41,694 nucleotides of DNA from an uncultured cyanobacterium (GTDB lineage: Bacteria > Cyanobacteriota > Cyanobacteriia > Thermostichales > Thermostichaceae), in NCBI GenBank assembly GCA_937944885.1, contig CALFBB010000058.1, forward strand, positions 1 through 41,694. Direction: 5' to 3'. Made by a program: the position numbers and the translations under genes. The notes beneath the pieces were generated by a model. It did no database searches and was not told where the DNA came from. It was given only the letters and a program-made list of their open reading frames with translations. Positions within the stretch are counted from its first letter, which is position 1. Each line of letters begins with the position of its first letter. Shown here in pieces: positions 9,392 to 16,655 of this stretch.

Positions 9392-9796
9392 ATGCTGTAC
9401 TTAGCACGGGTACACAAGAAAGGGCTATTTGGTCAAGCGGAGCTGCAACTGTTGGCATACCAAACTCCGGATCGGGTTTGGTCTGCGGTTCGTAGGCCAG
9501 AGCTCCTAACCTGCAAAGAGGCCAGTGCTTACAATGTCGGGGTGTTGCTCCTGGTGGAAGTCTCAGAGGAGCGCCAGGTGCAACATCTGGAAGAAGCAGC
9601 CATTAAACTGGTAGAGATGCTCCATAGCTTATCCCAGGCGGGCAGCCTAATCGATTTATCAGAAATTGAGAGCTGGCGGCAATCCTTAACCCGGCAAAGT
9701 CAGGAGCTCAGCCGCCGGGAAGCTGAGATAGCTGCTCGCCAAGATCAGTTGGAACAGTGGGAACTCAAGCTGCGACAACAAAAGGGATCCCTTTAG
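9392..9796 (+). CDS. Short HmpF-like protein (N-terminal domain only)
   Basis: 134 residues. The opening MLYLARVHKKG, the block FGQAELQLLAYQ and the later SWRQSLTRQSQELSRREAEI resemble the N-terminal globular domain and start of the coiled coil of HmpF, a cyanobacterial protein needed for type IV pilus motility and taxis. Full-length HmpF has a long coiled coil of several hundred residues; here the coil stops after about 35 residues at a TAG, and no continuation is seen in other frames up to 9990. It is thus either a truncated gene or a separate short paralogue. The family match is from memory of the sequence pattern. Confidence 0.6.
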   Translation: MLYLARVHKKGLFGQAELQLLAYQTPDRVWSAVRRPELLTCKEASAYNVGVLLLVEVSEERQVQHLEEAAIKLVEMLHSLSQAGSLIDLSEIESWRQSLTRQSQELSRREAEIAARQDQLEQWELKLRQQKGSL

Positions 9797-10459: not shown

Positions 10460-11149
10460 TTACCCAGCTTGGTTGGGTTGCAACAGCTTCTCCAGGACTT
10501 GATCATGGCTGAGGCCGGAGTCCACCCAAGCTTCTCCATCTTTAAGGCGGGCAGCAGAGGAGACAACAAACAAATTGCTTTTGGCTCCTAAAGCCTCACT
10601 GGTGGTCTGTACACAAAGTAGGTCCTGACCGGTTAACTGGCTAAACCAAGCACCTAGCAACCCCGCCTCCAAAAAGCCCATTGGACGCTTAAAATGAGCC
10701 GGTGTTAACGCAGCAAAGGGGGAGTTGCGAATGGACACCACCAAAACCCCTTGATCCTTGTAGGTCCAGTCAATCTCGATCAATCCCCAACCATGGGTCT
10801 TCCAAGCTTGCTTCAGATTTTGCAAAAAAATACCCATCTCCAGTTCAGCTAGGGGCTTTTGGTAGTAATCCGAAAGCTCCTGGGCAAACCGGCGAAAAAA
10901 CTCTTTCCCCCACATGCGGCCACAGTTGCGCAACACCAAGCGAGCTGCCTGCCCAGTCTCGTATTCCAGGCCACTGTAAATCCCCCGCAGCAATGCCTCA
11001 GGCAGGGCAAGGAGACGCTCACCATGACGACTTTGCAGCAGGCCTGATTCTAGATCACCCTGGAGATAAGCACTGGGGGTGTAGTAGTTAGCCAAAACTG
11101 GGGTGTAAGGGTCAAAGCTGACTGAGGGACTGGAGGCAGAGGTAACCAT
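10460..11149 (-). CDS. V4R-domain (4-vinyl-reductase-like) protein, second copy
   Basis: 229 residues. Resembles the other V4R-type protein of this cluster in size and fold pattern: ALLRGIYSGLEYETGQAARLVL in the N-terminal half, a conserved aromatic WGLIEIDW block, and a hydrophobic C-terminal third. It lacks the C-x7-C pair that the first copy has in its V4R domain, so it may not bind the same ligand. V4R domains bind small hydrophobic molecules or metals. Position and order match Synechocystis slr0147, part of an operon linked to photosystem II assembly; that homology is inferred from order and domain type. Confidence 0.7.
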   Translation of the reverse strand: MVTSASSPSVSFDPYTPVLANYYTPSAYLQGDLESGLLQSRHGERLLALPEALLRGIYSGLEYETGQAARLVLRNCGRMWGKEFFRRFAQELSDYYQKPLAELEMGIFLQNLKQAWKTHGWGLIEIDWTYKDQGVLVVSIRNSPFAALTPAHFKRPMGFLEAGLLGAWFSQLTGQDLLCVQTTSEALGAKSNLFVVSSAARLKDGEAWVDSGLSHDQVLEKLLQPNQAG

Positions 11150-11235
11150 AAGAGCGTTTGTAGCGTTTGTGAGTTGGTTGTGTTTCTAGATCGATGGTGT
11201 TCAAGGATAGATAGGGAGAGCAACCGGCTAACCCC

Positions 11236-11694
11236 CTAAAACAGCAAAGCCACCTGAACCTGAGTAATCAAGGGGCGAATGAACTCCAACTCCCCAGGAG
11301 CAAGGTGCTCTCTAAGTTCCTGCTGAAAGATCCGGTAGGCAATTTCGTAAACGCTCTGTAGCCCATACAGCTGTACCTCTTCTTCCACCCACTCGATCAA
11401 CCGCTCCTTGAGTAGCTCTTCATCCTGAAGCAACATGGCCATGGCGCTGTGGCGCAACAACAACAGCAGATGCCGCTGACAAAGCTCCAGCACCTGTCCT
11501 GAAAGGCTAGGCATCTCCTGCTTGAGGGTGTTCAAGGTGCGGCTGACGATCTGGCTTTCCCGTTCCCGCAGAACCTGGTAAACATGCTTCCGCTTTGGCC
11601 AGCCGAGAACATAAGACTTCAATTGCCTCAGTTCATCTGGCTTGAGGTAGCGTGCTTCCGCTTCAATGAGCATCTGTTCAAGAGCACTAGCCAT
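11236..11694 (-). CDS. Conserved cyanobacterial hypothetical protein (slr0146-like position)
   Basis: 152 residues, predicted almost entirely alpha-helical, with no signal peptide or membrane segment. It begins MASALEQMLIEAEARYL and contains a leucine-rich block LCQRHLLLLLRHSAMAMLL and an acidic helix EWVEEEVQLYGL. No catalytic motif is evident. It lies between two small genes and two V4R genes on one strand; by position it would correspond to slr0145 or slr0146 of Synechocystis, where the operon affects photosystem II assembly. The assignment is by context only. Confidence 0.65.
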   Translation of the reverse strand: MASALEQMLIEAEARYLKPDELRQLKSYVLGWPKRKHVYQVLRERESQIVSRTLNTLKQEMPSLSGQVLELCQRHLLLLLRHSAMAMLLQDEELLKERLIEWVEEEVQLYGLQSVYEIAYRIFQQELREHLAPGELEFIRPLITQVQVALLF

Positions 11695-11724
11695 TCTCGC
11701 TTCTCCCGATGATCCTGCAAGGGG

Positions 11725-11976
11725 TCAAAACATACTGAAGAGATCTGCTAGGGTGATTGGGTCTTCTTCTGGTGGAGGTTCTGCTCCTGCCGACAGGGAT
11801 CCCAAAGAACGCGCCACCAAAGCCGAGGGATCCCCGGCCCAAGGGATGGAGCCGAATTGCTCTCGCACCAACAGGAAGGGCATAGGCAACGACCGAACGT
11901 CGAGAGAGCGATTATCCCAATTCAGACGGGCAAAAAAGCCCTGCACGGATTCTTCTAAAGGAATCTCTAAGCTCAT
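11725..11976 (-). CDS. Small conserved hypothetical protein in V4R operon
   Basis: 83 residues. The start at 11976 overlaps the end of the upstream V4R gene by 4 bases, an arrangement typical of translational coupling and the best evidence that it is a real gene. The N-terminal half has SVQGFFARLNW and RSLPMPFLLVREQFG; the C-terminal half is acidic and Pro-rich (PPPEEDP) and ends in DLFSMF. No known domain recognised. By position it would match slr0145. Confidence 0.65.
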   Translation of the reverse strand: MSLEIPLEESVQGFFARLNWDNRSLDVRSLPMPFLLVREQFGSIPWAGDPSALVARSLGSLSAGAEPPPEEDPITLADLFSMF

Positions 11977-12656
11977 GCTTTGGGTACTCCCTCGCCAGAA
12001 CGCAACTTTTGGGTAATTTCGGCAGCACTGGCCCCTTCATTGAGCCAGAAGGCAGCAGCATCAATGCGATCCTTGCTACCAAGCAAAAACTTACAGTAGC
12101 TCTCCCCCATGGAGTAGCACTGGATCTCAATACAGTTAAGCTGCCGTTCTACCATGCCACTAAAAAAACCGGCAAACAACCCCGCATAAAGATGACAAAC
12201 AGGCTTGCCCACGTCTCCCAGGGTGCGCGCTACAGCTGAGTCAAACAGGTTGATGAAAATAAATCCCTGCCGCCGACTTTCGGTATCTACTTCCCAGCGC
12301 CCCCATCCTTGGGAGGTTAAGGGCCACCACCAGGTTTCCAGCAGAAACATGAGGTTGCTTTGCTTCGTCTTACGCCGATATTCTTCCTCATACCAACGGG
12401 AAAAGTGAGCGGCATCAGCACGGCCCCACTCTTTACCGATGGTGTACATCAAAGAGGCAGAAGCATCCCCCACTTCCTCCTCTAGACCCTGCTGTAAACC
12501 CAGGATAAAGTCTTCACTCACTAGGACATTGCGTCCCCCGGTCCAATCCACAAGGGAGCCCTGTTGGCGGTTGAAGCGGAAAAAGTCTTCCCGGCTGTAG
12601 TGATTGTGCCGCTGGGCAGCAGGCTGAAGGGGTAACTCGATAGGGGTAGCTGTCAT
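11973..12656 (-). CDS. V4R-domain (4-vinyl-reductase-like) protein, first copy
   Basis: 227 residues. The C-terminal third is a recognisable V4R domain: GFFSGMVERQ then CIEIQCYSMGESYCKF, where the C-x7-C pair (CYSMGESYC) is the family's conserved site. The N-terminal half includes LVSEDFILGLQQGLEEEVG and a Trp-rich stretch ETWWWPLTSQGWG. V4R domains are known from bacteriochlorophyll 4-vinyl reductase BchJ and from regulators. First of a four-gene minus-strand operon. The ATG at 12656 is preferred; a GTG at 12689 and a five-codon frame (ATG 12700) lie upstream. Order V4R/small/small/V4R matches Synechocystis slr0144-slr0147. Confidence 0.75.
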   Translation of the reverse strand: MTATPIELPLQPAAQRHNHYSREDFFRFNRQQGSLVDWTGGRNVLVSEDFILGLQQGLEEEVGDASASLMYTIGKEWGRADAAHFSRWYEEEYRRKTKQSNLMFLLETWWWPLTSQGWGRWEVDTESRRQGFIFINLFDSAVARTLGDVGKPVCHLYAGLFAGFFSGMVERQLNCIEIQCYSMGESYCKFLLGSKDRIDAAAFWLNEGASAAEITQKLRSGEGVPKA

Positions 12657-12813
12657 GGTTGTATGAGGAGAGAGTACGTTTTTTAACACTCTTTAATCAT
12701 ACTCTTCTCCTCAGGCGCTTTTACCGGAAGTCAACTGCCTGTGGAGTCGAGCAGGGGGATCTCTTTAGGTTTTGCAAACAGAGGAAGGCCCAAAGGCCGA
12801 TCCTCACCGGGTT

Positions 12814-13401: not shown

Positions 13402-13620
13402 ATGGCAGTTGAGAAAGTAAACTCTTCCTCGAGCTTGGCTGAGGTGATCGATCGCATCTTGGATAAAGGGATCGTTGTCGATGCCTGGGTGCGGGTTTCT
13501 TTGGTCGGGATCGAGCTGTTGGCGATTGAGGCTCGTGTTGTTGTCGCTTCTGTGGAAACCTACCTGAAGTATGCTGAGGCTGTGGGTCTGACGGCTACTG
13601 CGGCTGCTCCTGCTGCCTAA
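13402..13620 (+). CDS. gvpA: Gas vesicle structural protein GvpA
   Basis: 72 residues. The main shell protein that forms the ribs of the gas vesicle. The sequence is nearly the cyanobacterial consensus: [54 protein letters not shown], then a short Ala-rich tail. ATG preceded by AGGAG (TTAGGAGTCG) eight bases upstream. Only one copy is seen in the window, whereas many planktonic cyanobacteria have tandem copies. It begins the plus-strand cluster gvpA-gvpC-gvpN-gvpJ and is followed by a 287-base spacer. Confidence 0.97.
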
Positions 13621-13907: not shown

Positions 13908-14867
13908 ATGAGTTTGCAGGAACAATGGGTTATGGCCCGAACCCAACGGGCGGCTCAAAACCAAAGTCTACTAAGTCGATCCCGTCAGCAACGCCTTGAG
14001 TGTCATCAAGCGCTGATGGCCGAGTTGAGCCAGCAACGTCAACAGCGGCAGCAGACGATGCAGCAGCAGAGGGAGCAAACCCGGAACCATCTGCGCAAGT
14101 TGGAGCAGGCACGGGCGGCACAGCGGGCCTTAGATGAATACTCGCGGACAGAAATTGCTCGGCAGCGGGCCCAATCGGTGACAGACCTTCTTTCCAGTTT
14201 GGGGCAGGAACGGGCTGCTCAGTCTGAAGCAATGCAGCAGCAACTGCAGGCTTTTCGGGCCAATCTGGAGTTGGAGGTGGAGAGTTTGCTGGCATCCTAC
14301 AGCCAAGTGCAGCAGAACCTGGCCAATGCTGCCCGGCAAGTGCGGCAGGCATTTTATGCTGAACTTCGCCAACAAGTACAAACCTTGCAACAGCTGGCTC
14401 GGCAGGAGCTGGCCCAAATGGCGGAGGAACGACAGGTTATGGCCCAAAGGCTGCAAAGTGAACTGATCGCTTTCCGAGCCCGCCTATGTGAGCAGGTGTG
14501 GGGCAACGGCAAGCCGGTCCCAGAGCCGCCGAAACCCATCGAGTCTGAAACTGGCTCCGCTCCAGAACCGGCCCCACCGACGCCACCCTCTAAGCCATCC
14601 TCTACAGAAGAAAAGAAAATACCCCCTGTTGAGCCTACTAAACCTGTTGAGCCTACTGAAGAAGAATCAGGTCGTATTCTTGCTTATGTGAACAAGTACG
14701 TGGAGGCTTTACAGGTACAGGACCCGGGTTTAACGCTGTTGCAGGTGATTGGTAATCGCGAACAGGTGCGGGATCTGTTGGCCCGGGGGGCAGTGGAGCT
14801 AGGGGTGGATCCCTCGGAGATCCTGAGCACATTGCGGCAGATGGTTTCAGAAACCGTTGCAGTTTAG
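13908..14867 (+). CDS. gvpC: GvpC-like gas vesicle protein with added C-terminal domain
   Basis: 319 residues from the ATG at 13908, which follows AAGGGG; a TTG at 13899 would add three. Residues 1-197 are Gln/Arg/Ala-rich helix with degenerate repeats of about 33 residues of the GvpC kind (SVTDLLSSLGQERAAQ, LQAFRANLELEVESLL). GvpC coats and stiffens the vesicle shell. Unlike the short classical GvpC, this protein then has a Pro-rich linker (about 200-252, including two PVEPT units) and a 65-residue helical domain (254-319) with ILAYVNKYVEAL and ARGAVELGVDPSEIL. Identity as gvpC rests on repeats and on its place between gvpA and gvpN. Confidence 0.75.
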   Translation: MSLQEQWVMARTQRAAQNQSLLSRSRQQRLECHQALMAELSQQRQQRQQTMQQQREQTRNHLRKLEQARAAQRALDEYSRTEIARQRAQSVTDLLSSLGQERAAQSEAMQQQLQAFRANLELEVESLLASYSQVQQNLANAARQVRQAFYAELRQQVQTLQQLARQELAQMAEERQVMAQRLQSELIAFRARLCEQVWGNGKPVPEPPKPIESETGSAPEPAPPTPPSKPSSTEEKKIPPVEPTKPVEPTEEESGRILAYVNKYVEALQVQDPGLTLLQVIGNREQVRDLLARGAVELGVDPSEILSTLRQMVSETVAV

Positions 14868-14932
14868 GGTGGGCTCGAGCCGCCAGGTAAGGATCCCGGT
14901 TATAGTCAAGGCAAAAGAGGTTGAGTACTCCC

Positions 14933-15820
14933 ATGGCCACTGTTTTGCAGGCGCGTCCACGCCAGTTTGTCAATACTGCCTACACGGAGCGAATTGTCCG
15001 CCGGGCTTTGCGTTACTTGCAATCGGGCTTTGCGGTTCACCTGCGCGGCCCTTCTGGCACAGGCAAGACCACCTTGGCTATGCATCTGGCGAGTTTGATG
15101 GGCCGCCCAATCATGTTGATCTATGGGGATGACCGGTTTGATTCCTCTGACTTAATTGGGGGACGCACCGGCTTTACCCATCGGCGGGTGGTGGATAACT
15201 ACATTCACTCGGTGGTGAAGACGGAAGAGGATGTGCAACAACGCTGGGTAGATGCTCGATTGACCTTGGCTTGCCGGGAAGGGTTTACCCTGATCTACGA
15301 CGAGTTCAATCGCTCTCGCCCTGAGGCCAACAATGCTTTGCTCAGTGCTTTAGAAGAGAAGCTATTGGTCATGCCGCCGGACAGCAACCGGTCGGAATAT
15401 TTGCGGGTGCATCCTCAATTTCGCGCTATTTTTACCTCCAACCCGGAGGAGTACACGGGGGTTCACAAAGCTCAAGATGCACTGCTTGACCGGATGATTA
15501 CCATTGATATCGGAGAGCCGGACATTGAAACCGAAAAAGAGATCCTCACTTCACGGGTGGGCTTATCCACGCCGGATGCTCTCAAAATTGTCCGTTTGGT
15601 ACGGGCCTTCCGCCGCAAGTTGGAGCTCACTCAGCATCCCAGTCTGCGCAGTTGTCTGATGATTGGTCGCATTGTTAAGGAGCATGAGCTGGCCGTCAGC
15701 AAAGAAAATGCTGATTTTCGTGCCCTCTGTGCAGATGTCTTGCTGGCTCGTGCCGGCAAGCGTCAAGAGGAGGAGGCAGCTCAAGTGCTCAATTATTTGC
15801 TAGACCAACTGCCTAGCTAG
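14933..15820 (+). CDS. gvpN: Gas vesicle protein GvpN (AAA+ ATPase)
   Basis: 295 residues. MoxR-like AAA+ ATPase required for enlargement of the initial gas-vesicle bicones into cylinders. Walker A GPSGTGKT at residues 39-46, Walker B LIYDEFNR with Asp123-Glu124, and a sensor-1-like FTSNPEEY block. The start MATVLQARPRQFVNT at the ATG at 14933 fits the usual GvpN N-terminus and has AAGAGG 12 bases upstream; a TTG at 14921 is less likely. Full length. Lies 65 bases after gvpC and 52 before gvpJ. Confidence 0.95.
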   Translation: MATVLQARPRQFVNTAYTERIVRRALRYLQSGFAVHLRGPSGTGKTTLAMHLASLMGRPIMLIYGDDRFDSSDLIGGRTGFTHRRVVDNYIHSVVKTEEDVQQRWVDARLTLACREGFTLIYDEFNRSRPEANNALLSALEEKLLVMPPDSNRSEYLRVHPQFRAIFTSNPEEYTGVHKAQDALLDRMITIDIGEPDIETEKEILTSRVGLSTPDALKIVRLVRAFRRKLELTQHPSLRSCLMIGRIVKEHELAVSKENADFRALCADVLLARAGKRQEEEAAQVLNYLLDQLPS

Positions 15821-15872
15821 TGCCTAGGTCTCTGTTTTGTCCCCTTGCCAGTTTAGGAGCGTTATCCACCCT

Positions 15873-16214
15873 GTGCCTATTACCTCTCAACCTTTAACCA
15901 CAGCTACCCACGGCTCCTCCTTAGCGGATGTGCTGGAGCGCGTGTTGGATAAGGGCATTGTGATTGCGGGGGATATCACCGTTTCTGTGGGCAATGTGGA
16001 GTTGCTGAATGTACGAATTCGCCTGTTGATCTCTTCGGTGGATAAGGCTAAAGAAATCGGTATTAACTGGTGGGAGTCGGATCCCTATTTGAATAGTCAA
16101 GCGCGAGAACTGTTGCAGGCCAACCGGGAACTGATGCAGCGGGTGGCCTACTTAGAGGGTCAGTTGGCCCAAGTCTTGCCCAAAGGGGGAAATGGAACGG
16201 CGGCCACAGGCTAG
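15873..16214 (+). CDS. gvpJ: Gas vesicle protein GvpJ
   Basis: 113 residues. A GvpA paralogue thought to be a minor shell or nucleation component. It has the same core, SSLADVLERVLDKGIVIAGD and VELLNVRIRLLISSVDKA, extended by a C-terminal helix (GINWWESDPYLN onward) not present in GvpA. I chose the GTG at 15873, in frame, with AGGAG 13 bases upstream; the TTG at 15837 is an alternative. It is the last recognisable gvp gene here: no gvpK, gvpF, gvpG, gvpL, gvpV or gvpW follows. Confidence 0.92.
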   Translation: MPITSQPLTTATHGSSLADVLERVLDKGIVIAGDITVSVGNVELLNVRIRLLISSVDKAKEIGINWWESDPYLNSQARELLQANRELMQRVAYLEGQLAQVLPKGGNGTAATG

Positions 16215-16250
16215 ACTGGCTGCTGTGGTGGTTTGGTTGGGTGGTGGGGC

Positions 16251-16655
16251 ATGACGTTAGCCAAAAAATGCTGCCGGAACCCTTTGGGTGGGCTGCTGGT
16301 ACTGGGTTTGCTGTTTGCAGGGATCCCGGCTTGGGGTGAGAATCCTCGTGCTATTAGCATTAATGCCGATGCGCAGGAGGCCAACGCTAATACTGGGGTG
16401 TTTACGGCTATCGGCAATGTCACCCTCAATTTTCCTGCCGAACGCATTACTGCTCGTGCCCAGAGGGCGGTTTACTACAGCCGGGAACAGCGCATTGAAC
16501 TGGAGGGTCAAGTTGTTATCCATCAAGGGGAGAATCGACTGCAGGCGGAAAAGGTTATCTACCACATCGACCAAGGCACAATCCAAGCTGTTCCGGTGGC
16601 GGGGCAACAGGTGGAGTCCATTTATGTTTTGCCGGAACCTGTCCCAAACCCTTAG
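16251..16655 (+). CDS. LptA/OstA-like periplasmic protein
   Basis: 134 residues. Residues 1-30 are a signal peptide (basic start, hydrophobic LLVLGLLFAGIPAWG, cleavage probably after AWG). The rest has the repetitive beta pattern of the OstA/LptA domain: ISINADAQEANANTG, VTLNFPAERITARAQRAVYY, IELEGQVVIHQGENRLQAEKVIYH. LptA-like proteins bridge lipopolysaccharide from inner to outer membrane. ATG at 16251; it starts 36 bases after gvpJ in the same direction and may share its transcript, though it has no known link to gas vesicles. Confidence 0.8.
   Translation: MTLAKKCCRNPLGGLLVLGLLFAGIPAWGENPRAISINADAQEANANTGVFTAIGNVTLNFPAERITARAQRAVYYSREQRIELEGQVVIHQGENRLQAEKVIYHIDQGTIQAVPVAGQQVESIYVLPEPVPNP

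Follow-up and report, generated by a model that had tools for sequence, protein, structure and literature searches.

A conserved and apparently undescribed C-terminal domain on the gas vesicle protein GvpC of one cyanobacterial clade

The GvpC protein of an uncultured cyanobacterium ends in a small domain, predicted to be helical, that is real, conserved and, apparently, undescribed. We analysed a stretch of 41,694 nucleotides (the window; contig CALFBB010000058.1 of assembly GCA_937944885.1). Its gvpC gene lies at positions 13908 to 14867 on the forward (+) strand and encodes 319 amino acids, from an ATG at 13908 to a stop codon that ends at 14867; a TTG 9 bases 5' of the ATG is a possible alternative start. 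The C-terminal domain (type 1, hereafter CTD) takes up residues 253 to 319 (67 residues; 14664 to 14864, +). We put at about even the probability that the helical repeats of this protein clamp the GvpA ribs of the vesicle while the tethered CTD docks a protein, most likely GvpN or another GvpC.

Judged from its sequence, the product of this open reading frame is a real GvpC, because it passes the cut-off of the cyanobacterial GvpC repeat model, lies in the order gvpA-gvpC-gvpN-gvpJ and has repeats that score above all shuffles. The repeat model (TIGR02641) passes once, at residues 85 to 116, with 19.8 bits (E = 6.5 × 10−4), only just over its cut-off of 18.8 bits; the same model reaches up to 44 bits in the GvpC of one congener. 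On the 5' side lies gvpA, for the major shell protein (13402 to 13620, +; 72 amino acids; PF00741, 60 bits; NCBIfam PRK09371, 138 bits, cut-off 100). On the 3' side are gvpN, for an AAA+ ATPase (14933 to 15820, +; TIGR02640, 363.5 bits, cut-off 266.8; alternative start TTG at 14921), and a gvpJ-like gene for a second GvpA-family protein (15837 to 16214, +; PF00741, 60 bits), whose best NCBIfam match, halobacterial GvpJ, is under its cut-off. This gene order recurs in all 12 of the CTD-type (type 1) regions that we took in full. With a composition-corrected position matrix built from 52 Nostocaceae-type repeats, the top four repeat windows of the protein sum to more than in any of 1000 shuffles of the same residues. 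The original prediction of a GvpC-like protein was thus well placed on the sequence, and the strings that it quoted (ILAYVNKYVEAL, GVDPSEIL and two PVEPT units) are all found in the translation. It had named membership of an unrelated coiled-coil family as the finding that would overturn it. Such a protein, sitting by chance in a gvp cluster, could account for the weak repeat signal, for the sub-threshold matches of this Q/R/A-rich sequence to SMC and PspA models and for the lack of any Pfam family over its cut-off across the whole protein. We consider this very improbable, given the TIGR02641 matches here and in the congener, the repeat register, the gene order kept across regions and a basic repeat region (pI 10.3).

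Other genes of the window and of its genome (2.8 Mb, 62 contigs) were also noted. The gvp genes are spread across five contigs; many cyanobacteria have a single cluster. The window (C58) carries gvpA-C-N-J, C33 a gvpK fusion, C62 and C27 gvpF/L, and C47 gvpG. The fusion (C33, 7925 to 9208, −) is a single chain of 427 residues with three parts: a HAD-like hydrolase domain, for which the Pfam match is sub-threshold, GvpK at 102 bits and, at 50 bits, a domain of the GvpA/J family. In the window, an LptA/LptD-N-like protein is encoded 3' of gvpJ on the same strand (16233 to 16655, +). Two V4R-domain proteins (10460 to 12689, −) surround a small protein of the phycobilisome family (PF00502, 48 bits; the ApcA model is far under its cut-off) and an 83-amino-acid open reading frame without a match. 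The match of a 134-amino-acid open reading frame (9392 to 9796, +) to HmpF (NF038350, 121 bits, cut-off 200) is confined to the first 134 of the 553 positions of that model; this is a short or cut form.

Three degenerate 33-residue repeats are clear in the rod. The first (residues 84 to 116; 14157 to 14255, +) is found by both TIGR02641 and the position matrix. The second (residues 117 to 149; 14256 to 14354, +) and the third (residues 157 to 189; 14376 to 14474, +), which is offset by 7 extra residues, are found by the matrix at positions shared with congeners; in the 3 congeners scanned, all three strong repeats stand at the positions seen here. Degenerate repeats had been predicted over residues 1 to 197. 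This is borne out within residues 84 to 189, whereas residues 1 to 83 give a weak repeat signal. The repeat region is gap-free and 61 to 88% identical among six species of the genus, and the rod closes with a VWG motif (residues 197 to 199; 14496 to 14504, +). A VW or IW motif occurs in most tailed GvpC proteins, whichever of the two tail types they carry. In Anabaena, GvpC binds helix alpha-2 of GvpA, and the docked model uses GvpA Glu52 and Glu59 (PMC9994262); the GvpA of the window, read from its translation, has E52 and E59. By homology, the repeats would be placed along the GvpA ribs on the outside of the shell and stiffen the vesicle as in Anabaena.

Past VWG lie 120 of the 319 residues, a departure from the almost repeats-only form of Anabaena. 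They begin with a fast-evolving, proline-rich linker (residues 200 to 252; 14505 to 14663, +) of about 53 residues, 32% of them proline, in which both of the predicted PVEPT units are present. The linker is gap-rich and 30 to 58% identical among the six species, and those of relatives are often longer. Within the protein, constraint is strongest in the CTD, which is gap-free and 75 to 96% identical over its 67 residues among the same species. In this comparison, dN in the CTD ranges from 0.03 to 0.18 and dS from 0.25 to 1.8, with a dN/dS of about 0.1 in most pairs. These substitution patterns indicate that the CTD is under purifying selection and the linker far less so. Single residues are strongly kept over distant families, among them the arginine of an [ND]R motif and the D-P pair in DPSEIL. 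A CTD that has no specific partner and merely gives the coat protein bulk, solubility or a folding cap would fit with the existence of tail-less GvpC in Nostocaceae. It would not be expected to keep single residues in this way or to have so low a dN/dS, and we regard it as quite improbable.

The CTD was modelled with AlphaFold2 from an alignment of 23 domain sequences. The model is a single unit of four helices (domain positions 2 to 19, 25 to 30, 32 to 46 and 50 to 65), has a mean pLDDT of 86.5 and lacks a beta wing. The domain is acidic, with a pI of 4.65 here and of 4.1 to 5.2 in 22 of 23 members, and residues 253 to 319 contain neither Cys nor His. Searches of Pfam and NCBIfam with the single sequence and with the 23 members gave scattered sub-threshold matches and no relative. 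A Foldseek search of the PDB gave no match at E ≤ 0.001, and comparison with the GvpN C-terminus showed no similarity. The top PDB matches by sequence profile were short alignments to designed repeat proteins around VRDLLARGA, which we rejected as chance. Structural comparison of the model (VIA) aligned it with homeodomain and SarX chains at Z scores of up to 5.2, which are common for small helical folds. We found no description of the domain in the open-access literature, the part of the literature that our search covered. The prediction that this is a new C-terminal domain therefore agrees with its distinct predicted fold and with the lack of an above-threshold counterpart in Pfam, NCBIfam and the PDB (Foldseek, E ≤ 0.001).

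A search for the same domain in other gvp clusters, as the original prediction had proposed, did find it, on GvpC. The CTD profile (A1) matches 38 of 390 genomes sampled from the larger class, exactly once in each; these tallies rest on profile matches and on the reading of a subset of loci. The hosts are Thermostichus-type Synechococcus (the family of the window), a second family that named loci identify as Pseudanabaenaceae, and a third family. An alignment scan of genome contigs found 22 named CTD loci (a single-protein scan gave 0), and a plasmid search gave no match. Because the domain is, in every locus read, the C-terminus of a GvpC-like protein (277 to 456 amino acids), after a linker and at the very end, the sequences indicate that the CTD is the standard GvpC ending within one clade. 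A domain standard in GvpC at large would have argued against novelty; this one is standard inside that clade and only there.

The gene directly downstream of a CTD-type gvpC is gvpN in 12 of 12 regions and in 22 of 22 named loci, two sets that overlap. The GvpN proteins of the CTD clade (about 293 to 327 amino acids, stop to stop) bear no added domain and nearly always end in LLDQ[IL]; that of the window, which ends in LLDQLPS, likewise has no added C-terminal domain. In a GvpN tree of 38 rows, a branch with a support of 100/100 has the CTD-associated proteins on one side and separates them from the winged-helix group described below. The type of GvpC tail is therefore inherited with the GvpN lineage. 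Two genes of a single cluster are expected to be inherited together in this way even if their products do not touch.

The other recognised cyanobacterial GvpC proteins that we sampled fall mainly into two groups. Nostocaceae-like GvpC (two families, so named from their Anabaena-like repeats) have no tail, whereas the GvpC of many other families has a similar layout and ends in a winged-helix domain (A2). This domain is recognised by TrmB and MarR models, and its best Pfam match is TrmB (E = 1.6 × 10−6). The A2 profile matches 118 of the 390 genomes, mostly twice per genome. In all six tailed type-2 regions that we took in full, GvpN (405 to 503 amino acids) ends in the second copy, and one Nostocaceae-like genome has A2 on GvpN and not on GvpC. 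In many families, the winged-helix domain of GvpC and of GvpN is borne on a long linker. GvpC40 of Planktothrix is reported to share 60 C-terminal residues with the GvpC of Geitlerinema and 28 residues with GvpN (PMC5259702); the C-terminus common to the two GvpC proteins is probably the winged-helix tail. Since GvpN usually also bears A2 where GvpC does, with two matches in most A2 genomes, GvpC tails appear to be tied to GvpN.

The CTD might itself be a remote, divergent form of this winged-helix tail that does the same protein- or nucleic-acid-binding job. It holds the same place after VWG and a linker, and A1 and A2 occur together in no genome; the genome of the window and the other type-1 genomes have no A2 match at E ≤ 0.001. 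Furthermore, hhalign aligns the helices of the two domains in the same order (P = 0.0027), above 197 of 200 column shuffles. However, the hhalign probability is just 11%, and 3 of the 200 shuffles score as high. The CTD model is without a beta wing, the CTD is acidic, in contrast to the near-neutral or basic winged helix, and all Foldseek matches of the CTD are non-significant. We therefore think a shared origin unlikely.

We favour a CTD that acts as a protein-protein docking module on a tether. The flexible linker, attached to the end of the rod, would keep this small, acidic domain of four helices at a distance from the shell, where it would most likely bind GvpN, the product of the adjacent downstream gene, or its own counterpart on a neighboring GvpC. 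This docking would couple the assembly or spacing of the coat to the growing vesicle. GvpN and GvpC are the likeliest partners because of the analogy with halobacterial GvpC, and the acidity of the CTD makes protein contacts more suitable than DNA contacts. More tentatively, and with a probability well short of even, the CTD may be a docking domain, specific to GvpC and as yet undescribed, that brings the GvpN ATPase to the vesicle surface or bridges GvpC molecules. In other cyanobacteria, an unrelated winged-helix domain common to GvpC and GvpN would take its place, and there would then be two independent ways of linking the coat to the assembly ATPase.

The main rival to docking on GvpN or GvpC is the original proposal that the domain reaches out from the vesicle. 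The CTD could self-associate across vesicles, bundling them into gas vacuoles, or anchor vesicles to another part of the cell. A long, variable linker and a separately predicted domain suit such a tether, and the C-termini of halobacterial GvpC interact with themselves (PMC9372576). Against this, the genomes offer no link between the CTD and any partner other than the gvp genes, and Nostocaceae have GvpC without a tail; because they manage without it, gas vesicles do not in general require a tail. We judge bundling or anchoring to be possible, although somewhat doubtful. On our analysis, binding to GvpN or to another GvpC is, by analogy, better supported than binding to another vesicle or cell component.

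The CTD may bear on what GvpN and other minor proteins do to a vesicle as it grows, and on why species differ in GvpC length and in vesicle width. One clade has this tethered domain, many others carry a different one in its place, and the laboratory model Anabaena has none. Its position is a natural site at which to add functions to engineered gas vesicles.

Three known forms of GvpC offer a comparison. Like that of Anabaena flos-aquae, the GvpC of the window is a basic rod of 33-residue helical repeats with an L/F/R pattern, encoded between gvpA and gvpN. Anabaena GvpC consists of five repeats and short ends (PMC10185304), whereas in the protein described here three degenerate repeats are clear, and a linker rich in proline and a further folded domain come after them. 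The original description of classical GvpC as essentially only 33-residue repeats fits the Nostocaceae type; it is not general for cyanobacteria, because many other GvpC proteins carry a linker and a domain. GvpC with a winged-helix tail shares the degenerate repeats, VWG, the linker and a C-terminal domain of about 60 residues. The CTD differs in being a different, all-helical domain, of which GvpN bears no copy. In halobacterial GvpC, too, a globular domain at the C-terminus comes after the repeats; it contains a zinc-finger motif and binds to itself as well as to GvpN and GvpO (PMC9372576). Because that motif is absent from the CTD, the analogy with halobacterial GvpC is one of position only.
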